Below, in pieces: positions 11,714 to 21,985 of a DNA stretch of 64,000 nucleotides. Under the pieces are notes generated by a model that was given only the letters and a program-made list of their open reading frames with translations, did not search any database and was not told where the DNA came from. Made by a program: the position numbers and the translations under genes. Numbering within the stretch: position 1 is the first letter of the stretch; each line of letters begins with the position of its first letter. The DNA comes from Pseudarthrobacter chlorophenolicus (GTDB lineage Bacteria; Actinomycetota; Actinomycetes; Actinomycetales; Micrococcaceae), in contig NZ_JZTW01000001.1 of NCBI RefSeq assembly GCF_000962805.1, forward strand, positions 310,001 through 374,000, read 5' to 3'.

Positions 11714-13084
11714 ATGACCACCACCGCATCAGACCTCACCTTCCGCCTGGAGCAGAAGCGCAACGTCCAGGCCGACTTCCCGGGCCCCAAGTCCGTGGCA
11801 CTGACCGAGCGCCGCAAGTCCGTGGTGGCTGCCGGCGTCGCCTCCAGCGTCCCGGTCTATGTTGCCGACGCCGACGGCGGCATCATCCACGACGTCGACG
11901 GCAACTCCTTCATCGACCTGGGCTCCGGCATTGCGGTGACCAGCGTGGGCGCGTCCGATCCCGCCGTCGTCGGTGCCGTCAAGGAAGCCGTGGAGCACTT
12001 CACCCACACCTGCTTCATGGTCACCCCGTACGAAGGCTACGTGGCCGTCGCCGAGCAGCTGAACCGGCTCACCCCGGGCGACCACGAAAAGCGCACCGTC
12101 CTCTTCAACTCCGGCGCCGAGGCCGTGGAAAACGCGGTCAAGGTGGCCCGCCTGGCCACCGGACGTGACGCCGTCGTGGCCTTCGACCACGCCTACCACG
12201 GCCGCACCAACCTCACCATGGCGCTGACCGCCAAGGCCATGCCGTACAAGACCAACTTCGGCCCGTTCGCGCCCGAGGTCTACCGGATGCCGATGAGCTA
12301 CCCGTACCGCGAGGAAAACCCCGCCATCACGGGTGCCGAGGCCGCCAAGCGCGCCATCACCATGATCGAGAAGCAGATCGGCGGCGACCAGGTGGCCGCG
12401 ATCATCATTGAACCCATCCAGGGCGAGGGCGGCTTCATCGTCCCGGCCGAGGGCTTCCTGCCGGCGCTGGCAGCCTGGGCCAAGGAGAAGGGCATCGTCT
12501 TCATCGCCGATGAAGTCCAGTCCGGATTCTGCCGCACCGGCGAATGGTTTGCCGTCAACCACGAGGGCATCGTCCCCGACATCATGACCATGGCCAAGGG
12601 CATCGCCGGCGGCATGCCGCTGTCCGCCATCACCGGCCGGGCAGACCTGCTCGACGCCGTCCACCCGGGCGGCCTCGGCGGCACCTACGGCGGCAACCCG
12701 GTGGCCTGCGCCGCTGCGTTGGCCTCGATCGGCTCGATGGAGGAATACGACCTCAACAACCGTGCCAAGCACATCGAAGAACTGGCCACCGGCCGCCTCC
12801 GCGAACTGCAGGGTGAGCTTGCCGGTTCGGGGAAGTCGGTGATCGGCGACGTCCGCGGGCGTGGTGCCATGCTCGCCATCGAACTGGTCCAGGCCGGCTC
12901 CAAGGAGCCCAACCCGGAACTGACCAAGGCCGTTGCCGCCGCCTGCCTGAAGGAAGGCGTCATCATCCTCACTTGCGGCACCTACGGCAACGTCATCCGT
13001 TTGCTCCCGCCGCTGGTCATCACGGATGAGCTCCTGACGGACGGCCTCGAAGTCCTGGCCGTCGCCATCAAGGCCCACGCCTAG
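11714..13084 (+). CDS. gabT: 4-aminobutyrate--2-oxoglutarate transaminase
   Basis: 456 aa, full length for a class-III PLP aminotransferase. It converts GABA and 2-oxoglutarate to succinate semialdehyde and glutamate. Visible motifs are the phosphate-binding 'NSGAEAVENAVKVAR', 'FDHAYHGRTNLTMALTAK', the Asp of 'IADEVQSGFCRTG' that contacts the PLP ring nitrogen, and the Schiff-base Lys at about 295 in 'TMAKGIAGGMPLSA'. It starts 13 bases after the aldehyde dehydrogenase with AAGGAAA upstream. A rho-independent terminator follows directly, so this is a two-gene operon. No succinate-semialdehyde dehydrogenase gene lies nearby. Confidence 0.93.
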   Translation: MTTTASDLTFRLEQKRNVQADFPGPKSVALTERRKSVVAAGVASSVPVYVADADGGIIHDVDGNSFIDLGSGIAVTSVGASDPAVVGAVKEAVEHFTHTCFMVTPYEGYVAVAEQLNRLTPGDHEKRTVLFNSGAEAVENAVKVARLATGRDAVVAFDHAYHGRTNLTMALTAKAMPYKTNFGPFAPEVYRMPMSYPYREENPAITGAEAAKRAITMIEKQIGGDQVAAIIIEPIQGEGGFIVPAEGFLPALAAWAKEKGIVFIADEVQSGFCRTGEWFAVNHEGIVPDIMTMAKGIAGGMPLSAITGRADLLDAVHPGGLGGTYGGNPVACAAALASIGSMEEYDLNNRAKHIEELATGRLRELQGELAGSGKSVIGDVRGRGAMLAIELVQAGSKEPNPELTKAVAAACLKEGVIILTCGTYGNVIRLLPPLVITDELLTDGLEVLAVAIKAHA

Positions 13085-13106
13085 ACAGCAGGCCGACAAG
13101 CACCAC

Positions 13107-13142
13107 GGCAGCACCCCCGCATTGCGGGGGTGCTGCCTTTTT
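13107..13142 (+). terminator. Rho-independent terminator of the GABA operon
   Basis: A 14-bp G+C-rich stem (13107-13120 with 13124-13137) is followed by five Ts. Confidence 0.88.
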
Positions 13143-13600
13143 GGTTAACACGTATTTTCCCCTTTCAGCAGCCCACCTCCCCGGGTAACTACCCACTCCC
13201 GGCGGCCGGGAAGGCGGACTACCTAATGCCCCCTACTTGCCTGCCCGGCAAACACCTAACCACCCACTGGTTAAGGCCGGTTGCGGTAAGTATCCCCAAG
13301 AATTTTTTGGAGTACTTGGTACTCGTGTTAAGCGTCCTCAGCTACTCGTAACTTGGACACACCGGGACCCCGGAAAGCGGCCCCTGGAGTGCAACTTTGA
13401 GGAGTTTCCGGACAGCGAAGCCCCTCCACAATGACGAACGCCTCACAGCGAAGCGAGTAAGCGCCTACCAACATGCGGACGGCGGCAAAGGGCTCGGGCG
13501 GCGGCAGCCGCATCACCCCAGGCCGGCCATGGACATCCTGCACAACACAGAGGGGAAATGACGCGATGCAGTTCTCGTACACAGCAAGGGAGGGCCTCCG
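13143..13600 (+). other. 458-bp leader/promoter region of the exopolysaccharide cassette
   Basis: No credible gene lies here. The region is less G+C rich than its surroundings around 13295-13330 and contains a perfect palindrome, GAGTAC-ttg-GTACTC, at 13310-13324, a candidate operator. About 275 bases then separate it from the first gene. I could not match that stretch to a known riboswitch class, including cyclic-di-GMP aptamers. Confidence 0.5.
13310..13324. promoter_or_regulatory. Perfect palindrome upstream of the exopolysaccharide genes
   Basis: GAGTACTTGGTACTC has 6-bp arms around TTG. Its place in a long A+T-rich gap suggests a repressor or activator site; the cognate regulator is not in the window. 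Confidence 0.4.
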
Positions 13601-14146
13601 ATGAGGGGCATCGAAAGCATTGCAGTGCCTGCACAGGCCACCTTCGGCCGGGACGGGGCCATGTTCGAAGGCCTGCTCGATTTCGTAGCCCAGCTGAGCC
13701 TGGTGCTGTGGGGGCTGGTGGTCCTCACTGTGGTGATCCGCTTCGTTGGCGTAGGCCTGTACCGCAGGGGTGCCACCCGCAGGGCACTTGCTGCTGCACT
13801 GGCACCGCCTGTGCTGAAGCCCGTTGTTACGGCACCGCCGGCGCTGGCGCCCGAGGCTCCGACGCCCGGGGCTCCGACGCCCGGGGCTCCGGCGCCCGGG
13901 GCCCCGGCACGCGGGGCGCTGATGCCGGCAGTGCTGACGCCTGGTCCTGCCGCCGCGGCGGACACCCAGGCTGAACGTTCCCAGGCCGGACTCATCGAGG
14001 TCATGGCGGCGGACGCCACCTTCAGGGACGACCTGCAGCCCGCCGAGGTATCGGCCACCGTGGCCGCGCCGGTTCAGGTGCACCGCCGCATCTTCCGCGG
14101 CCGGCGCCGGCACATTCCTGCTCTCGCCAGCTCCACGGAGGGGTGA
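13601..14146 (+). CDS. Small membrane protein with Pro-Ala repeat, first gene of exopolysaccharide cassette
   Basis: 181 aa. One strong transmembrane helix (about residues 24-47, LLDFVAQLSLVLWGLVVLTV) is followed by a basic patch and a low-complexity segment with about four APTPG/APAPG units encoded by 15-bp repeats. The C-terminus is basic (VHRRIFRGRRRH). AGGGAGGG lies shortly upstream of ATG 13601. The stop is two bases before the ATG of the glycosyltransferase, so the two are likely coupled. I do not recognise a family. By position it resembles the small accessory subunits (PgaD, IcaD) that help processive synthases, but no sequence similarity is visible. Confidence 0.6.
   Translation: MRGIESIAVPAQATFGRDGAMFEGLLDFVAQLSLVLWGLVVLTVVIRFVGVGLYRRGATRRALAAALAPPVLKPVVTAPPALAPEAPTPGAPTPGAPAPGAPARGALMPAVLTPGPAAAADTQAERSQAGLIEVMAADATFRDDLQPAEVSATVAAPVQVHRRIFRGRRRHIPALASSTEG
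13856..13915 (+). repeat. Tandem 15-bp repeat encoding APTPG units
   Basis: Four 15-bp units; the first two (13856-13885) are identical and the third differs at one base. The repeat stays in frame in the 181-aa membrane protein, so copy number may vary between strains. Confidence 0.75.
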
Positions 14147-14148
14147 GC

Positions 14149-15486
14149 ATGGACTTCGCACTCGTCATCTTCTGGCTGTTTGCCGGCGTCAGCATCCTCT
14201 ACGTCGTGCACTTCGGCCTCTACCTGGCGGGCGCCAACTTCTACGACATCTGGCAGCAGCGGCGCAAGGGAATGAGGGGCGTGCGGGCACCCGGCCAATT
14301 CCAGCCGGAATGCGCCGCGACGGCCACCTGGACCCGGCGGGCCCGCCCCGAAGTTCCGGGGCTGGTATCGATCGTCATCGCCGCCCACAACGAGGAAGCG
14401 GTGATCGTCAGGACACTCGAGTCCATCGGCACAAGCATCTACCGTTCCTTCGAGGTCTTCGTCGCCGATGACGCCTCATCGGACCTGACCGGCAGGCTGG
14501 TCCGGGACTACCAACTGCGGCACCCCACCATGGACCTGCACCTGGTCCGGATGCGCCGCAACATCGGAAAGGGTGCAGCGCTCAACTCGGTGCTCCGCCG
14601 GCACGCCCGTGGCCAGTTCGCCATGACCCTGGACGCCGATTCAATCATCGGGCCGGAAACCATCACCAACGCGCTGTCCTACTTTGATGATCCGTGCGTG
14701 GCCGGAGTCGCCGCCAACGTGCAGATCCTGGAGGAGACCACCGTACTCGGCATCCTGCAGCGCTTTGAGCACATGATCGGCTACCGCTCCAAGAAGTTCT
14801 ACTCCCTCCTGAACGCCGAGTTCGTGGTGGGCGGTGTGGCCTCCACCTACCGGATGCGCGTGCTGCGGAAAGTGGACTTCTACGACACGGACACCGTGAC
14901 CGAGGACATCGGGCTGAGCGCCAAGATCACCAACCTGGGCAACCGGCGTTTCCGCATGATCTACGGTGCCGACGTGGTGGCCAAGACCGAGGGCGTGCTC
15001 TCGCTGCGCGCCCTGGCCAAGCAGCGCTACCGGTGGAAGTACGGCAGCATCCAGAACCTCATCAAGTACCGCGGCATGATGCTGAACCCGAGCCGCAGGT
15101 ACACGCCTACCCTGACCTACTACCGGATGCCCATGGCCCTGCTGAGCGAATTCACGCTGTTGATATCGCCACTGGCCTGGACCTACGCGGTTTACTGGTC
15201 GCTGACCACGCACACCCCTGCGCTGGTCCTTGGTGCCTATGCCACCATTACCGCCTACACGCTGCTCACCGTGTGGATGGACGAGAACCTGACAGTGCGT
15301 GAACGCAGCCGGCTCTCCGTCTACGCCCCTACGGCATACTTCCTGTTCTACATCATGGACCTGGTGCAGCTGACGGCGGCGCTTCGCTGCATTTTGCGCT
15401 CCCGCGGCCTCTTCCGGCGTCCCGAGATCAACACCTGGAAGTCACCGCAGCGGGCCGGCAGCCTGGTGGTGGCCAATGCCACGTAA
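14149..15486 (+). CDS. Processive family 2 glycosyltransferase (polysaccharide synthase)
   Basis: 445 aa. An N-terminal helix (about 3-25) precedes a GT-A catalytic domain, and two to four C-terminal helices follow (about 320-425). All processive-synthase motifs are visible: 'VADDASSDLTG', DADS at about 162-165, TED at about 251-253, and QRYRW at about 291-295. This is the architecture of PgaC/IcaA, NodC and hyaluronan synthases, which polymerise and extrude a beta-linked (often GlcNAc) chain. ATG 14149 has GGAGGGG ending five bases upstream; a GTG at 14143 is part of that site. It overlaps the next gene by 11 bases. The sugar cannot be read from the sequence, but the deacetylase partners point to an N-acetylated polymer. 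Confidence 0.88.
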   Translation: MDFALVIFWLFAGVSILYVVHFGLYLAGANFYDIWQQRRKGMRGVRAPGQFQPECAATATWTRRARPEVPGLVSIVIAAHNEEAVIVRTLESIGTSIYRSFEVFVADDASSDLTGRLVRDYQLRHPTMDLHLVRMRRNIGKGAALNSVLRRHARGQFAMTLDADSIIGPETITNALSYFDDPCVAGVAANVQILEETTVLGILQRFEHMIGYRSKKFYSLLNAEFVVGGVASTYRMRVLRKVDFYDTDTVTEDIGLSAKITNLGNRRFRMIYGADVVAKTEGVLSLRALAKQRYRWKYGSIQNLIKYRGMMLNPSRRYTPTLTYYRMPMALLSEFTLLISPLAWTYAVYWSLTTHTPALVLGAYATITAYTLLTVWMDENLTVRERSRLSVYAPTAYFLFYIMDLVQLTAALRCILRSRGLFRRPEINTWKSPQRAGSLVVANAT

Positions 15487-17278
15487 GCGGCGGCGGTTAC
15501 TTCGTGTGCTGTTGAACCCCCTCGTGGTCATCCTGGCTGTGGTGGCACTGATCACCGCCGGTTGGCTGGTGTACACGCGGGGCAGCGGCAGCATGGCCCA
15601 GGCACGGCCCGGCGCCAACCTGCTCCCCGCCTTCGACCCGTCAGCGGGGGTCATCCCCGCAGCATCCGGCCAGCCGGACCCGGCCGGGCAGGTGGGCGGC
15701 TGGACCGTCCGGCGCAGCGGGACCGCCGAAACCTCGCTTGAGCTGGCCGCCGGAGAGCTGCAAAGCCAGGCGCTCCGGCTGGACATCAGCGGCTACGGAT
15801 CGGGCGACGTTACGCTGACAACCCCCCGCGTGGACGTCCAGCCCCACCAGACTTACCTTTTCAAGGCCTTTGCCTCCAGCGACACCGACTTCACCCTGCT
15901 GGCCCGCCGGTTCCTGGCCGATGGCAGCACCGTTCTGGAGCAGCTCCGGAACCCGCTGGAGCGGCCCGGGAACACCCCTTACACGGTGAGCGATGCCTTC
16001 GACAGCGGCGAGGCGACAACCGCCGTCGAGTACGTCTTCAGGCTGGCATCCGAGGGCGCACTCAAGATCGAAGGAGCCTACCTGGAACCGGCCAGCGACG
16101 TCCTGCTCCTGCCCTCACCGCCGCCCGGCCCGAACCTCATCCCGAACCCTGGAATCACAGGGATCCAGCCCTCCGGACCCGATGCATGGTCCCCCTATTC
16201 CTCCGGGGCGCTGACGGCGGAGTCCGGCCGGAGCCAGGACGCAGGCGGCAGCTACCTCTGGACGCGCATTTCCAATTACAAGTCCGGCGAGGCGAAATGG
16301 CAGTACCAGCCCATCCCGGTGACCGGTGACAGGTCCTTCGAATTCGGAGCCACCTACCGGTCCGACAGGGAGGTGGATGTGGTGGCCGAGTTCGAGCTCG
16401 CCAACGGTGGCCGCGCATTCCACAGCCTGGAGACCGTGCTGCCCGCCGGAGAATGGACCACCGTCAGCGAGGCATTCCAGGCACCCGCCGGAGCCACCTC
16501 GGCAATGGTCACGCTGGTGGCCCACGGGGACGGCACCACCAGCGTCCGCAACTACTCGCTCACCGACACCACGAAGCCCGGTCCCCTCCGCTGGAGCCAG
16601 CCCATGGTCTCGATCACCTTCGACGACGGCTGGCAATCGGTGTACGACCGTGCACTTCCGCTGCTGGACCGGCATGGATTCCGGTCCACCCAGTACGTCA
16701 ACGCCAGTTCCATCGAGACACCCAACTTCATGACCGCGGCCGAGGTGCAGCAACTGCACCAGGCCGGACACGAGATCGCCGCGCACAGTTACGAGCACGT
16801 GGACCTGACCTCCATCGGGACGGACCGCCTGGACGAACAGGTGCGCAAGAGCGAAGAGGCGCTGGCAGCGGCCGGCTTTGAAACCAGGGACCTGGCGCCC
16901 CCGTACGGCCGCCACGACCCGCAGGTGGACTGGTATGCCAAAAAATACTTCGACATCGTCCGCGGCACGGACGACGGCATCAATACCCGGCAAAGCCTGG
17001 ACCAGCAGGACCTGAAGGTCTTCTACGTGACGGACCAGACCACCATGGCCACGTTGTCTGAAGCGTTGGCCGAGACGGCCCGGATGAACGGATGGCTCAT
17101 CCTCGTCTACCACCAGATTTCCACGGCGCAGTCCACCGGCACCCAGGAACACAGCATCGCGGCGGACCGGAGCACCATCACCAGCGACGTCCTCGCCGCC
17201 CAGCTGCAACTGATCGACGACAGCAATATCGAGGTCCAGCCGGTGATGCAGGCCTTCGAAAAGCTGCAGGGACCCTGA
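15476..17278 (+). CDS. Membrane-anchored polysaccharide deacetylase with beta-sandwich domains
   Basis: 600 aa. A basic N-terminus and one transmembrane anchor (about 12-32) are followed by two carbohydrate-binding-like beta-sandwich regions (about 45-215 and 220-370; the second starts near 'NLIPNPGITG'). A NodB/CE4 deacetylase domain covers about 375-595. CE4 motifs are TFDDGW (about 381), HSYEH (about 436) for metal binding, 'APPYGRHD' (about 475) and 'LVYHQ' near the end. It should remove N-acetyl groups from the exported polymer at the outer membrane face. The start overlaps the synthase gene by 11 bases, indicating coupled translation. Confidence 0.85.
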   Translation: MPRKRRRLLRVLLNPLVVILAVVALITAGWLVYTRGSGSMAQARPGANLLPAFDPSAGVIPAASGQPDPAGQVGGWTVRRSGTAETSLELAAGELQSQALRLDISGYGSGDVTLTTPRVDVQPHQTYLFKAFASSDTDFTLLARRFLADGSTVLEQLRNPLERPGNTPYTVSDAFDSGEATTAVEYVFRLASEGALKIEGAYLEPASDVLLLPSPPPGPNLIPNPGITGIQPSGPDAWSPYSSGALTAESGRSQDAGGSYLWTRISNYKSGEAKWQYQPIPVTGDRSFEFGATYRSDREVDVVAEFELANGGRAFHSLETVLPAGEWTTVSEAFQAPAGATSAMVTLVAHGDGTTSVRNYSLTDTTKPGPLRWSQPMVSITFDDGWQSVYDRALPLLDRHGFRSTQYVNASSIETPNFMTAAEVQQLHQAGHEIAAHSYEHVDLTSIGTDRLDEQVRKSEEALAAAGFETRDLAPPYGRHDPQVDWYAKKYFDIVRGTDDGINTRQSLDQQDLKVFYVTDQTTMATLSEALAETARMNGWLILVYHQISTAQSTGTQEHSIAADRSTITSDVLAAQLQLIDDSNIEVQPVMQAFEKLQGP

Positions 17279-17334
17279 CCAGACTTCGGCGGTGTAACCC
17301 GGCGCCGCCGGCCCCAAAAAGAACGGAACAGCAC

Positions 17335-19128
17335 ATGACCGGAACCAGATCCAGCCTGGCGCCCTGGCGCGTCAAGCTCATGAGCACCGTGGTGGCGGTG
17401 GTGGCCATGGCCGCCGCGCTGCTGACGCCGGGGGCGGCCAACGCGGCCGTGGACAACCCCGCACCAGGGCCCCTCGTGTCCTTCACTTTCGATGACGGCG
17501 CCCAAAGCGCACTGACGCAGGCCGCGCCCACCCTCCAGAAGTACGGGCTGACGGGCACGAACTACGTGATCACCGGCTGCGTCGGCATGACGACAGTACC
17601 GAACACCTGCCGCGCCAACACCGATGTGCCCTACATGACCTGGAGCCAGATCCTGCAGCTGCAGAACACCTACGGCTGGGAGATCGGATCACACACCGTC
17701 AACCACCAGTGCCTCGTCAGCGTTGGCGATGACTGCCAGGCGAACAAGCTGACCGCAGCGCAGGTGGAAGCCCAGCTCGCCAACAGCAAGTCGGCACTGG
17801 CCGCCCAGGGCATCAATGCCACGGCCTTCGCGCCACCCTACGGCGACTACGACATGTCGGCGGTTGCGCGGGTGGCCAAATACTACAGCTCCATGCGCGG
17901 CTTCGCCGACACGGGCAACAACATCTGGCCGCTGGGCGACTACCTGCTCCGCAACGTCCCGGTCCAGGAAGTCACCACCCCGGTGACGGCGCTGAAGGCC
18001 CAGGTGGACGCAGCCATCGCCAACAAGCAGTGGGTGGTCTTCACGTTCCATGACATCCGGCCCAACCCCAGCCAGGTCCCCGATGACTACCAGTACGGCA
18101 CCGCGGAACTGGACCAGCTCGCCGCCTATGTGAAGACCAAGGTGGCTGCCGGGCAAATCCGCAACGTCAACGTCAGCAAGGGCCTCGTGACCGGTTCACC
18201 GAACCTGATGCCGAACCCGTCGTTCAACACGGGAATCGCCGACGGATGGCGCACCGATGCACCTGCGGCCATCACGGCCGACGCCGCAACCAACGGCAGC
18301 TTCCCGGACGCTGCCCGGTCCATCAAGATGGTGTCCGGGACGGCAACGGGGCACCTGTTCTCGCCGGCTGTGGCAGTGTCACCGACCACGAACTACCTGT
18401 TCAAGTCCTACCTGAACGTCGCTGCCATCACCAGCGGCGAAGTGGGCTTCTACGTGGACGAGTACAACGCGGCCGGGCAGTGGATCTCCGGACAGTTCCG
18501 CAAGCGCGAGAACACCAGGTGGGTGGAGGCCATGAACTTCACCTACACGCCGAGCTCCACCAATGTGGCCAAGGCCAGCCTCCAGGTGTGGGTGACCGGC
18601 AGCGGAATTACGGCCTACCTGGACAACGTGCAGTTGCTGGCCCTGACCGCGGGGACCACCCCGCCGCCGCCAACGTCCACCAACCTGGTGGCCAACGGCA
18701 CCTTCGACGCCGGGATCAGCTCGGGCTGGACCACTGACTCCGCGCCCACCATCGTGGCGGACGCAGCCAACCACGGAAGTCCCGCCAACCCGGTCAACTC
18801 CGTCAAACTGGCGTCCACGACGGCGAACAAGCATCTGTTCTCACCCCAGGTGGCGGTTACGGCCGGGACCTACAACATCGCCGGGTACCTGAATGTCGCA
18901 GCCCGCACCAGCGGTGAGGTGGGCTTCTACATCGACGAGTACAACGCCGCAGGACAGTGGATCTCCGGGCAGTACAAGCTCGGCGTGGCGGCCGCTGGAG
19001 TGACCAACGTGGACCTGACTTACTCGCCAAGCACCACCACGGTGGCGAAGGCAAGCCTGCAGGTCATCGTCCAGGCCAACTCCGGGCTGCAGGCGTATTT
19101 CGACGACGTCCGCTGGACCAAACCCTGA
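17335..19128 (+). CDS. Secreted polysaccharide deacetylase with two C-terminal carbohydrate-binding-like repeats
   Basis: 597 aa. A Sec signal peptide (about 1-38, ending near 'GAANAA') is followed by a NodB domain with FDD at 52-54, HTVNH at about 120-124, PPYG at about 165 and a 'VFTFHD' motif. Two homologous beta-sandwich modules follow (about 288-440 and 448-597), beginning NLMPNPSF and NLVANGTF and sharing 'SGEVGFYVDEYNAAGQWISG' almost identically; they look like a recent duplication of a CBM-type module. ATG 17335 is chosen because it gives a clean signal peptide; the frame is open upstream to 17092 but overlaps the previous gene. It probably deacetylates and binds the released polymer. 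Confidence 0.85.
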   Translation: MTGTRSSLAPWRVKLMSTVVAVVAMAAALLTPGAANAAVDNPAPGPLVSFTFDDGAQSALTQAAPTLQKYGLTGTNYVITGCVGMTTVPNTCRANTDVPYMTWSQILQLQNTYGWEIGSHTVNHQCLVSVGDDCQANKLTAAQVEAQLANSKSALAAQGINATAFAPPYGDYDMSAVARVAKYYSSMRGFADTGNNIWPLGDYLLRNVPVQEVTTPVTALKAQVDAAIANKQWVVFTFHDIRPNPSQVPDDYQYGTAELDQLAAYVKTKVAAGQIRNVNVSKGLVTGSPNLMPNPSFNTGIADGWRTDAPAAITADAATNGSFPDAARSIKMVSGTATGHLFSPAVAVSPTTNYLFKSYLNVAAITSGEVGFYVDEYNAAGQWISGQFRKRENTRWVEAMNFTYTPSSTNVAKASLQVWVTGSGITAYLDNVQLLALTAGTTPPPPTSTNLVANGTFDAGISSGWTTDSAPTIVADAANHGSPANPVNSVKLASTTANKHLFSPQVAVTAGTYNIAGYLNVAARTSGEVGFYIDEYNAAGQWISGQYKLGVAAAGVTNVDLTYSPSTTTVAKASLQVIVQANSGLQAYFDDVRWTKP

Positions 19129-19170
19129 CGCCCGGCCCAGGATTGAGGGCACCGGATGGGAGGAGACAGG

Positions 19171-20856
19171 ATGGCCTGGCGCCCGCGCGTAGCGATCGTG
19201 CTGGCGTCCGGCGTCCTGCTCGCCCTTGCAGGCTGCACGCCGGACAGTCCGGAGCCTGACATGGTGGTCAACCTGCTCCAGCAGGACTGGCAGCATACGT
19301 CAGGGGTGACGCCCGACGACGGCGGGTTGCGGGTGGCGGCCACGTCGCGGAGCATCGTGGAACAGGACGGCGGGGGAGGGCAGCCAAACCCGCCGGTCAA
19401 CCTGGCCGGAACACACCTCGTGGCCACCGGTGACTTCACCCTCAGCGCATCGTTCACCGACGTGACGGCCGATGCCTCCCTGACGGTCTACGACAGCCCG
19501 CCGGTGATCGCCGACGAGTTCCGGATAGAACCCGCGGGCCTGCGGCTCACCCTGCGCGGCGACGACCTGGATATTGCGGTCTTTGACGGCTCACGCCAAA
19601 AGTCCGTGACCAATCCCCAACCGGCGCATGACGAGCGGGTCCGGCTCCAGGACCCCGGGGCGGAGCTCACAGTGCGACGGTCCGGGGACAAGCTTGAGGT
19701 GGGCAGCGGCGGGAACACTGTGCTGTCCCGGTCCCTGCACGGCATTTTCGGCTCCGGGCAGCTGTGGCTGGGGCTCGCGAGCGACGCCGGATCGTTCCAG
19801 GTCAGATCCCTAACTGCCACCGCTCCCGGCGGTGTCTCCCTGACCGCGGCGGGTCCCGCCGTCGAGCAGGCAAGCCAACTGCCCGATGGCCTGCAGGCGC
19901 TGGCGGCACGGATCCGTCCGGACTTCAGGATCGGTGCCGCGGTGGCACTCGGACCGCTGGCCTCGGACGCCGACTACGGGCGGGTGCTCGTGGGGAATTT
20001 CGGCGCCATCACCCCGGAGAACGCGATGAAGGCGCAGAACCTCTCCCCACAGCAGGGCGCCTACACCTTCGAAGAGGCGGACGCGATCCTCGCGGTCGCG
20101 GAAAGCAAGGGCATGGCCGTGCACGGCCACACCATTGCCTTCACGGAGGCGATGCCCCGCTGGATGCAGGAACTTCCCTCGGGCACCGAAGCGGAGCGCA
20201 GCGCCAGTGCGGAGGCCCTGCTCGACTACGTCACCGCCGTCGTGACGCACTTCCGGGGCCGGCTCGATTCCCTGGACGTTGTCAACGAGCCCTTTGACAC
20301 TGACCAAGGCACGGACCTCCAGCAGAACATCTGGTACCGCGTCTTCGGACCGGCCTACCCGGCCGCCGTTTCGCAGGCCGTCTACGCGGCCGATCCGCAG
20401 GTGAAGCAGTTCATCAACGAGAACGGGGCGGACGTTCCGGGGCGCCGCCAGGACGCGCTGCTCAAGCTCGCCCTGGACACGAATGCCGCAGGCGGGCACA
20501 TTTACGGCGTGGGCCTCCAAGCCCACGTCTACAACCTCGAAACCGACGCCATCCCGGCCGGCGAGCTCACCAAGACCCTGCGGAACTTCCAGGACGCCGG
20601 GCTGCGCGTCCGCATCTCGGAAAACGACGTGGCGGACGACGACGGTACTGACGTCCAGGCGGCGCAGTATGCCACCATCCTGGACACCTGCCTGCGTTCA
20701 AGCGCCTGCGTCTCCTACACGACGTGGGGCGTGGACAACCGCTACGACTGGCTGATCGACGACGACGGAAGCCTGCAGCAGGGACACGACTACCTGTTCG
20801 AAAACGGCAAGCCGACCCCGCCCTACGACGCGATAAGGAAAGTGCTGGGCGGTTGA
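19171..20856 (+). CDS. Divergent GH10-family glycoside hydrolase, lipoprotein
   Basis: 561 aa. The signal sequence ends in a lipobox (LALAGC), so the mature protein is probably lipid-anchored outside the membrane. Residues about 30-235 form a beta-rich, lectin-like domain; a GH10 (beta/alpha)8 domain covers about 250-555. The acid/base Glu is in 'LDVVNEP' (about 372), and the nucleophile is predicted in 'VRISENDVA' (about 483), where typical xylanases have ITELD. The substrate-site 'HGHTIAFTEAMPRWM' departs from the usual HTLVWHSQ pattern. ATG 19171 has GGAGGA seven bases upstream, which rules out the ATG at 19156. Its place after two deacetylases suggests that it trims the cassette's own polymer rather than plant xylan; this is inference. 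Confidence 0.8.
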   Translation: MAWRPRVAIVLASGVLLALAGCTPDSPEPDMVVNLLQQDWQHTSGVTPDDGGLRVAATSRSIVEQDGGGGQPNPPVNLAGTHLVATGDFTLSASFTDVTADASLTVYDSPPVIADEFRIEPAGLRLTLRGDDLDIAVFDGSRQKSVTNPQPAHDERVRLQDPGAELTVRRSGDKLEVGSGGNTVLSRSLHGIFGSGQLWLGLASDAGSFQVRSLTATAPGGVSLTAAGPAVEQASQLPDGLQALAARIRPDFRIGAAVALGPLASDADYGRVLVGNFGAITPENAMKAQNLSPQQGAYTFEEADAILAVAESKGMAVHGHTIAFTEAMPRWMQELPSGTEAERSASAEALLDYVTAVVTHFRGRLDSLDVVNEPFDTDQGTDLQQNIWYRVFGPAYPAAVSQAVYAADPQVKQFINENGADVPGRRQDALLKLALDTNAAGGHIYGVGLQAHVYNLETDAIPAGELTKTLRNFQDAGLRVRISENDVADDDGTDVQAAQYATILDTCLRSSACVSYTTWGVDNRYDWLIDDDGSLQQGHDYLFENGKPTPPYDAIRKVLGG

Positions 20857-20866
20857 CCCGGACCGT

Positions 20867-21985
20867 TCAGCCGGCGGCCTGCAGCGGAGTCCGACGTTTG
20901 GCCAGAGCATTCTTACGCGCGGTCCGGAGCATGTCCACCGTGAGCAGCAGCAGCGCCACCCACACCACGCCAAAGCCGATCCAGCGCTCCGCGGTCATGG
21001 CTTCGCGGAAGACCACGAGGGCCACGATGAACTGCAGGACCGGGGCGAAATACTGCAGCAGGCCGATGGTGGTCATCGGCAGCCGGCGCGCGGACGCGCC
21101 GAAAAAGACGAGGGGAACCGCGGTAATCACGCCGGAGGCCAGGAGCAGCCAGAAGTGGCCGGCTCCCTGGGTGGTCAGCGTGGCGGCCCCCGAAACGCCG
21201 AGGGTCACCATGGTGGCGGCCGCGAACGGTGCCAGCACCACGGTTTCCACGCTGAGGCTGGTCACGGCGTCCACGCGGGGGCCCACGCGCTTCTTTACGA
21301 AGCCGTACAGGCCAAAACTGAACGCCAGCGTCAGGGCAATCCAGGGCAGCTTGCCGTAGGAATAGGTGAGCACCCCGACCGCAATGAAACCGATGGCTAC
21401 GGCGGCCCACTGCAGCGGGCGCAGCTTCTCCTTGAGGACGAACACGCCGAGCAGCACGGAGACCAGCGGGTTGATGAAGTAGCCCAGCGAGGTTTCCACC
21501 GCCTGGTTGGTGGTCACCCCGTACGTATACGTCAGCCAGTTGACGGCGATGAGGAAGGCCGCCAGCGCCAGGGAACCGAAGACGGCACGGGTGCGGAGTG
21601 CGGCGATCAGGGCTGGCCACGCCCTCGTTACAGTGACCAGCAGGGCGCAGAACAGCAGGGACCACACCACGCGGTTGGCCACGATTTCGACGGCGCCGGC
21701 GGGCTTGAGCACGAAGAAGTACAGCGGGAGCAGCCCCCACAGCCCGTACGCTCCGATGCCGAAGAGGATTCCCGCCGTCGTGTCCCTGTCATTGACCGCG
21801 GCATCCGCCGCCCTGGCGGTCGCCGCGTCCGGACGGGCCGGGGCATGGGCGGAAGCCGGGAGAGGAGATGCGGGGGAGGAGGAAGGATCGGGGTGCGGCA
21901 CGGAACCCATAACATCAGCTGCAGGCCCGGTATTCCAAGCAGCGGGGTCCGAAATCCGGCAATTAGTCAGTACGCTTGCTTTCAT
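20867..21985 (-). CDS. RarD-type EamA family transporter
   Basis: 372 aa, if the ATG at 21985 is used. Residues 1-68 are a low-complexity Ala/Pro/Ser tail, then ten transmembrane helices follow (about 72-360) with the RarD opening 'GILFGIGAYGLWGLLPLYFF' and the second-half repeat 'SFGLYGFVKKRVGPRVDAV'. It belongs to the drug/metabolite transporter superfamily; RarD substrates are not firmly known. The open frame extends to 22933 on this strand but overlaps the topoisomerase gene, so the longer form is rejected. ATG 21910 is an alternative start that would shorten the tail. The gene is divergent from, and overlaps by two bases, the predicted leaderless peptide ORF of the topoisomerase gene. 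Confidence 0.82.
   Translation of the reverse strand: MKASVLTNCRISDPAAWNTGPAADVMGSVPHPDPSSSPASPLPASAHAPARPDAATARAADAAVNDRDTTAGILFGIGAYGLWGLLPLYFFVLKPAGAVEIVANRVVWSLLFCALLVTVTRAWPALIAALRTRAVFGSLALAAFLIAVNWLTYTYGVTTNQAVETSLGYFINPLVSVLLGVFVLKEKLRPLQWAAVAIGFIAVGVLTYSYGKLPWIALTLAFSFGLYGFVKKRVGPRVDAVTSLSVETVVLAPFAAATMVTLGVSGAATLTTQGAGHFWLLLASGVITAVPLVFFGASARRLPMTTIGLLQYFAPVLQFIVALVVFREAMTAERWIGFGVVWVALLLLTVDMLRTARKNALAKRRTPLQAAG
21971..21976 (+). promoter_or_regulatory. -10 box before the 11-codon leader ORF of the topoisomerase
   Basis: TACGCT ends seven bases before ATG 21984, the spacing seen for other leaderless genes in this window. Confidence 0.4.

Follow-up and report, generated by a model that had tools for sequence, protein, structure and literature searches.

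What does an actinobacterial operon build when it combines a membrane glycosyltransferase, two NodB-type deacetylases and a surface lipoprotein of glycoside hydrolase family 10 (GH10), a family known for xylan? The question is raised by a 64-kb stretch of Pseudarthrobacter chlorophenolicus (contig NZ_JZTW01000001.1, positions 310,001 to 374,000; hereafter the window, numbered from its first base), in which five collinear genes lie on the + strand: a Pro/Ala-rich protein of 181 amino acids (aa) with one predicted helix (13601-14146), a GT2 synthase (14143-15486; 447 aa; Pfam 6e-24), the deacetylase NodB1 (15476-17278; 600 aa), the deacetylase NodB2 (17335-19128; 597 aa) and the GH10 lipoprotein (19156-20856; 566 aa; lipobox LAGC; Pfam 1.3e-58). 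The genes are joined by overlaps of 4 and 11 bases and then by gaps of 56 and 27 bases, and all the proteins except the small one, four of the five, carry a Pfam domain over its cut-off. An earlier inspection of the letters alone (the sequence-only reading) had described this layout, including the Pro-rich one-helix protein as first gene, and the description holds. The answer that we favour, with a probability of about 0.6, is a synthase-dependent exopolysaccharide system for a partly de-N-acetylated, beta-linked amino-sugar polymer, in which the GH10 enzyme would take the role that BcsZ, PgaB and CcsZ have elsewhere. An exopolysaccharide function is likely, and an amino-sugar polymer appears more likely than a neutral glucan.

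Five genes conserved together as one unit

The five genes form one unit and are conserved together. Merging by GT2 sequence leaves 31 distinct intact actinobacterial loci and one remnant, all found through GT2 or NodB1, which belong to Arthrobacter, Pseudarthrobacter, Kocuria, Cryobacterium, Arachnia, Geodermatophilus and Blastococcus and represent four families (Micrococcaceae, Microbacteriaceae, Propionibacteriaceae and Geodermatophilaceae). The small protein, which always precedes GT2, the synthase itself and GH10 are present in 31 of 31 loci in the same order and orientation, with GH10 reaching a contig end in two (in L094 only its first part is in view, in L098 the final residues are missing). 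Both deacetylases are found in 29 loci, NodB1 being absent from Arachnia (L096) and NodB2 from Geodermatophilus (L097), and the end of NodB2 aligns only partly in Kocuria (L093). Chance was considered as the source of the gene order and is ruled out, because every one of the 31 distinct loci in which GT2 is intact has the same order. The spacing recurs as well: in the five loci with all gene ends read, the overlaps measure 4 bases (25 in one locus) and 11 bases, and the gaps 56-59 and 20-27 bases. Two of the loci (L066 and L092) are near-copies, 7 GT2 residues apart. Over 29 loci, the four large proteins show correlated pairwise distances (rho 0.49-0.78, with shared ancestry uncontrolled). The sequence-only reading had made its proposal depend on GH10 being co-conserved with the synthase in relatives, and among the 31 loci no synthase without GH10 was found.

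Samples of genomes taken at increasing taxonomic depth give the same picture. The genus sample comprises 101 genomes, of which 12 have a GT2 orthologue (at least 82% identity) and 13 a GH10 orthologue (at least 68%); the next-best proteins are at most 35% and 38% identical, respectively, and all 12 genomes with GT2 have the five genes in identical order. NodB1 is found in 6 of 245 genomes of the family, namely that of the window and five others, and all six have the five genes, with one GH10 cut by a contig end. A class-wide sample of 394 genomes yields a close GH10 in four: that of the window, one more operon and two genomes, G413 and G450, that are taken up below. The class and family counts may be low, because few candidates were scored per genome (at most four GT2 and three GH10 in the class search, at most five in the family search). 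Moreover, a scan of named genomes returned 27 loci, consisting of 22 actinobacterial loci with the synthase, the remnant, three loci of Saccharibacteria and one unrelated Prevotella locus; since it used two short peptide patterns, it is biased to close relatives.

Some copies are damaged. The 13th genome of the genus sample, Arthrobacter liuii (L070:8887-11558, the same as locus L103), carries the remnant, in which, through an internal deletion, the 5' part of GT2 runs directly into the 3' part of NodB2 while the small protein and GH10 remain. A single in-frame TGA interrupts GH10 in the operon of G026 (L068:3677-5365), one of the 12, and in Pseudarthrobacter sp. Fe7 (L089:11373-14977) each deacetylase is spread over two frames, through apparent frameshifts or sequencing errors.

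The synthase, its small partner and the deacetylases

The GT2 protein is a membrane synthase of the processive type, as the sequence-only reading had it: the DADS and TED motifs and the Q, R and W of QRYRW are invariant in 18 aligned members. Its best curated model in NCBIfam is PgaC/IcaA (TIGR03937), at 124.4 bits against a cut-off of 422.3 that is not reached, and the cellulose synthase model gives 20.7 bits. Identity to Escherichia coli PgaC and to a staphylococcal IcaA is 21-22%. A quick tree, in which branches are long, places the 18 operon GT2s in one starred clade and PgaC and IcaA in a starred pair apart from it. The nearest row to this clade is the GT2 of the Lacticaseibacillus plasmid pLP5401 (starred 96, on a long branch), and no close relative was found on plasmid records, the 125 that match all lying below 60% identity.

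The small protein consists of a single predicted transmembrane helix, a conserved stretch (around TFGRD..MFE.L..FV.Q.S...W and RF.G...YRR) and a variable Pro/Ala-rich tail, and it has no match in Pfam. It stands ahead of GT2 in every locus and is a putative membrane partner of the synthase. The earlier claim that it resembles neither PgaD nor IcaD was followed up for PgaD only and stands there, in a weak test: the match reaches 19.6 bits (E 0.015) across the hydrophobic stretch.

Both deacetylases score well above the Pfam NodB cut-off of 23.1 bits (NodB1 85.7 bits, 3.2e-24; NodB2 69.6 bits, 3.1e-19). In NodB1, which an N-terminal helix anchors in the membrane, the domain (16598-16945, +) is preceded by one CBM_4_9-like stretch that falls marginally below its cut-off (25.2 against 25.9 bits) and is absent from the sequence-only description. 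In NodB2, which an N-terminal hydrophobic signal marks as secreted, the domain (17458-17880, +) is followed by two CBM_4_9-like modules marginally above it (26.1 bits). Thus the membrane-anchored enzyme and the secreted enzyme with two binding modules that had been proposed are both recovered. The CE4 motifs TFDD and HxxxH and the motif-5 His are present in both proteins of the window; among five NodB1 proteins aligned, that of L098 has Asp in place of the second metal His. The best curated model for both is HfsH (75.2 and 59.4 bits, below its cut-off of 400), and the next-best for NodB2 is IcaB.

The deacetylase motifs bear on the linkage of the polymer. According to a review, beta-1,6 deacetylases have four residues between the two His of motif 2 and other CE4 enzymes three, and the former have the Arg of motif 3 displaced to just ahead of motif 4. 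In an alignment with IcaB and PgaB, both NodB proteins show a motif-2 spacing of three residues, unlike the beta-1,6 enzymes. The motif-3 Arg is missing from both (LAPPYG and FAPPYG), and an Arg occurs further on, in VRGT and MRGF, respectively, in agreement with the displaced Arg of the beta-1,6 enzymes; the assignment of motif 4 is not certain. Because features typical of beta-1,6 enzymes stand beside those of other CE4 members, the linkage cannot be called from the deacetylases. The GH10 and the spacing of motif 2 would favour a beta-1,4 linkage, whereas motif 3 would favour beta-1,6.

These data allow a divergent Pga/Ica system to be weighed, one that would make true beta-1,6-linked poly-N-acetylglucosamine (PNAG) and in which GH10 would have evolved to cut beta-1,6 links. 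Such a system would account for PgaC/IcaA as the top NCBIfam model of the synthase and for the absent motif-3 Arg, with an Arg ahead of motif 4 as in beta-1,6 deacetylases; it is quite unlikely given scores far under the curated cut-offs, a GT2 clade that excludes PgaC and IcaA, the three residues in motif 2 where beta-1,6 enzymes have four, and the beta-1,4 or beta-1,3 links for which GH10 members are known. The likeness to Pga/Ica on which the sequence-only reading had built thus survives as the logic of synthase, deacetylase and hydrolase, and it fails at the level of the synthase, with 124 bits against 422, 21-22% identity and a clade of its own. As the main reading, membership in Pga/Ica was accordingly rejected on the score and tree of GT2 and the motif-2 spacing of the deacetylases.

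A changed GH10 site and the substrate it suggests

The lipoprotein consists of a beta-rich N-terminal domain (about 19255-19851, +; residues about 34-232) and a GH10 catalytic domain (19903-20838, +) that scores 199.1 bits against a Pfam cut-off of 22.1, with the fold and both catalytic Glu present. Glu378 (20287..20289, +), aligned to E127 of the xylanase Cex, is presumably the acid/base, and Glu489 in the motif ISENDV (20620..20622, +), aligned to Cex E233, is taken to be the nucleophile. The structure model places the barrel behind the N-terminal domain, with a predicted local distance difference test (pLDDT) score of 79, and the first ten solved-structure matches are all GH10 enzymes (24-30% identity; template modelling score 0.83-0.89, normalised by target). 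By sequence search the N-terminal domain has no solved structure (best E 0.51) and no credible Pfam family. The divergent GH10 lipoprotein announced by the sequence-only reading is real, and this domain is an addition to it.

The divergence has a defined place. In 41 close rows, corresponding to 32 different sequences and given in Cex numbering, E43, N44, K47, H80, N126, E127, Q203, H205, E233, W273 and W281 are kept. All 41 rows have Phe at the position of Cex W84 and Asn directly behind the nucleophile, and at the position of Q87 there are 40 with Ala and one (L099) with Ser. In the window the W84 and Q87 positions are Phe329 and Ala332, with codons in 20140..20151 (+), in a loop whose W84 and Q87 we take to be conserved substrate-binding residues of the -2 site. 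W84 and Q87 are both kept in 14 of the 15 other GH10s of the genus, the exception (L026) being divergent. Four distant two-domain GH10s (34-35% identity) all have Ala at the Q87 position, with Phe at W84 only in the one from a Saccharibacterium and Trp in the other three, and W281 is lost in both of those where it is in view. Cex Q87 presumably lines up with two residues of other enzymes. One is Tyr87 of Xyn10A, to which the title of a paper of 2000 by Andrews and colleagues ascribes the choice of glucose or xylose; the other is Gln88 in a xylanase of Streptomyces, crystallised as the mutant Q88A/R275A according to the entry titles of the structure matches. Since W84 and Q87 are changed, the sequence suggests a six-carbon sugar at -2, and the site points to a hexose substrate, not xylose. 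The residues that we expect around C2 of the -1 sugar are the same as in xylanases, so that the enzyme would cut at a de-acetylated -1 residue.

Two further explanations can be judged on these residues. The GH10 and CE4 genes might serve plant-xylan foraging and ride with an unrelated glycosyltransferase, as could be argued from the Pfam family and nearest structures, which are those of xylanases, from the acetylxylan esterases that CE4 includes and from the ability of a close GH10 to stand alone. This is very improbable, in view of the strict order and co-conservation over 31 loci, of the loss of W84 and Q87 that ordinary GH10s of the genus keep, and of the fact that the operon GH10 is the only one found in the genome. 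Alternatively, the polymer might be a neutral, cellulose-like beta-1,4-glucan, from which the CE4 enzymes would remove O-acetyl groups as acetylxylan esterases do, and GH10 would be an endoglucanase like clostridial CcsZ, itself a precedent for the exchange of the hydrolase in a cellulose operon. The residues that GH10 keeps bind beta-1,4 chains in xylanases, and Q87A and W84F fit glucose at -2, Q87 being the position discussed for the selection of glucose or xylose in Xyn10A. A neutral glucan is nevertheless unlikely: no acetyltransferase gene is among the five, the synthase reaches 124 bits with PgaC/IcaA but 20.7 with the model for cellulose synthase, and the top curated models of the deacetylases are amino-sugar deacetylases.

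In the favoured reading of an amino-sugar polymer, GT2 and its one-helix partner would polymerise and extrude a beta-linked hexosamine chain, most likely of N-acetylglucosamine, from which anchored NodB1 and secreted, polymer-binding NodB2 would strip some of the N-acetyl groups on the outer side of the membrane. Like BcsZ, PgaB and CcsZ, the GH10 lipoprotein at the surface would then cut the polymer, either to clear stuck chains or to control length and release; the changes in its loop would let six-carbon sugars fit, and deacetylation would license the cut, so that we infer a partly de-N-acetylated polymer as its substrate. A narrower version, in which a new GT2 clade makes a chitosan-like beta-1,4 polymer, GH10 is a deacetylation-dependent chitosanase and Actinobacteria and Saccharibacteria share the core of synthase and deacetylase, at times with GH10, is put forward tentatively. 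If the favoured reading is true, activity of GH10 on an amino-sugar polymer would extend the family beyond xylan, and such enzymes would be candidates for biofilm removal or chitosan processing.

Several observations weigh against this reading. The structure model of GT2 is of low confidence (pLDDT 64). For NodB1, the next-best curated models are peptidoglycan deacetylases (49.9 bits) and the solved-structure matches include enzymes of three kinds, a chitin deacetylase, an acetylxylan esterase and a peptidoglycan deacetylase; with model and structure matches so mixed, the N-acetyl groups of the polymer are a putative target. Nothing at the -1 site of GH10 hints at additional space for an acetamido group, and a free amine or a hydroxyl would fit better. 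In two of the three metagenome-assembled genomes (MAGs) of Saccharibacteria that carry related genes (see below), whose completeness is not given, no GH10 was found. Lastly, GH10 occurs without the synthase: the enzymes of G413 and G450 are 71 and 69% identical to that of the window, the other four genes are absent within 19 kb, the best GT2 there has an E of about 5e-15 (against 1e-190 or better in Saccharibacteria) and none is of the operon clade, and a genome-wide search, which did not include NodB1, gave no NodB2 match at 1e-10.

In a quick tree these two GH10s nest in the operon-borne clade, with the Geodermatophilus and Blastococcus operons outside, and the lone copies therefore look derived. 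They lie at L117:8096-9871 and L118:8297-9994, and possibly serve to scavenge, or cheat on, polymer made by neighbouring cells. Three genomes of another family hold a distant form of GH10 and neither the operon GT2 clade nor NodB2.

Genomic site, relatives and known systems

Upstream of the operon in the window lies gabT (11714-13084), at whose 3' end direct reading of the sequence finds a GC-rich inverted repeat followed by a T-run (13107..13142, +), a terminator-like element that sets gabT apart from the operon. The sequence-only reading had started the operon at 13143, and this start has to be moved: the base directly follows the gabT terminator-like end, 458 bases ahead of the first gene, and bases 13143-13600 (about 460) hold no assigned gene. 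An alignment of the upstream DNA of 19 loci gives only patchy conservation. At gathering score, Rfam yields no riboswitch or other match in the window except three tRNAs, and positions 13000-13700 have only weak matches far below it. Downstream, an EamA-type transporter gene begins at 20867 on the opposite strand. An anti-phage system was considered and ruled out, PADLOC giving no match for the five proteins.

In 21 of the 31 intact loci gabD, gabT, EamA and/or FprA lie near the operon, as in the window. The other ten, in which none of these is present within the stretch read, comprise three Cryobacterium, two Arthrobacter and one each of Kocuria, a Micrococcaceae MAG, Arachnia, Geodermatophilus and Blastococcus, two of them being whole contigs of about 12 kb. 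A survey of gabT in 61 genomes of the genus gave 60 matches, and 30 of these loci were read: eight adjoin the operon (seven) or the remnant (one), and 22 belong to non-carriers, in which EamA adjoins gabT in 11, lies about a kilobase or more off (partly in view) in eight and is not in view in three. The direct adjacency of gabT and EamA in 11 of 22 non-carriers suggests that the operon has been gained or lost as a block at one site in the genus; in other genera its location differs.

Related genes occur beyond the Actinobacteria. Three Saccharibacteria MAGs encode a GT2 of the operon clade (43-47% identity) and a NodB2-like protein with two CBMs, which is 58% identical in two of them and in the third is fragmented over two contigs, a stop codon interrupting one of these (L101:21-1939, L102:6764-11380, L100:1962-3608, L122:8269-10047). 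A sortase-like gene stands directly 5' of GT2 in two (L101 and L102, with the Pfam sortase checked in L102), and one MAG has a two-domain GH10, 34% identical, on a separate contig. The low identities and the separate GT2 clade argue against stray actinobacterial DNA, though some contamination of the MAGs may be present. These MAGs belong to a lineage of small genomes that has a pathway variant of its own. Some of them live on Actinobacteria, and the related gene set raises the question of a surface polymer shared with actinobacterial hosts. The Lactobacillales plasmids pLP5401 and pLLUC073C resemble the operon in a GT2 about 28-30% identical with a short one-helix protein ahead of it, and differ from it in that these proteins have 57 and 54 aa and an LPxTG-like motif and that no deacetylase or GH10 is annotated in the stretch read; of the two GT2s, the tree covers that of pLP5401. 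The motifs are LPQAG and LPETG (L175:1633-1806 and L178:4687-4851), and the proteins are perhaps sorted polymer anchors or synthase partners.

The locus is best read as a synthase-dependent exopolysaccharide system that is so far undescribed. Searches of the open-licence literature gave no account of such an operon, and the main text of a survey of synthase-dependent operons names neither Arthrobacter nor GH10 nor xylanase and counts few characterised systems in Gram-positive bacteria (PMC7112194). The operon shares with Pga/Ica a GT2 membrane synthase, a small membrane partner and a de-N-acetylase, and with pga also a hydrolase. It departs from them in having two separate deacetylases with CBM-like modules, GH10 instead of GH153, no gene for the PgaA porin among the five, and a small partner that has a single predicted helix and does not convincingly resemble PgaD. 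In PgaB, the hydrolase is reported to have cut PNAG made in situ only when the deacetylase was active (PMC5933820). HfsH of Caulobacter, the top curated model for both NodB proteins at scores far below its cut-off, belongs to the holdfast, which is made by a lipid-linked repeat pathway. The endo-xylanases and cellulases Cex, Xyn10A and XynAS9 share the fold and catalytic residues of the operon GH10, which differs from them in W84F, Q87A, the Asn after the nucleophile, the extra N-terminal domain, the lipoprotein form and the place in a synthase operon. The clostridial cellulose operon ccsZABHI is alike in being Gram-positive and in using an unrelated hydrolase, of GH5, as the BcsZ counterpart, cellulose operons employing both GH8 and GH5 (PMC7710045); it differs in having putative acetyltransferases in place of deacetylases and a glycosyltransferase of the cellulose synthase type. 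Synthase operons often include a hydrolase, whose family varies from system to system, and the operon fits this scheme with GH10 in that place. Conserved as it is over four actinobacterial families, it could underlie the matrix that common environmental bacteria form.

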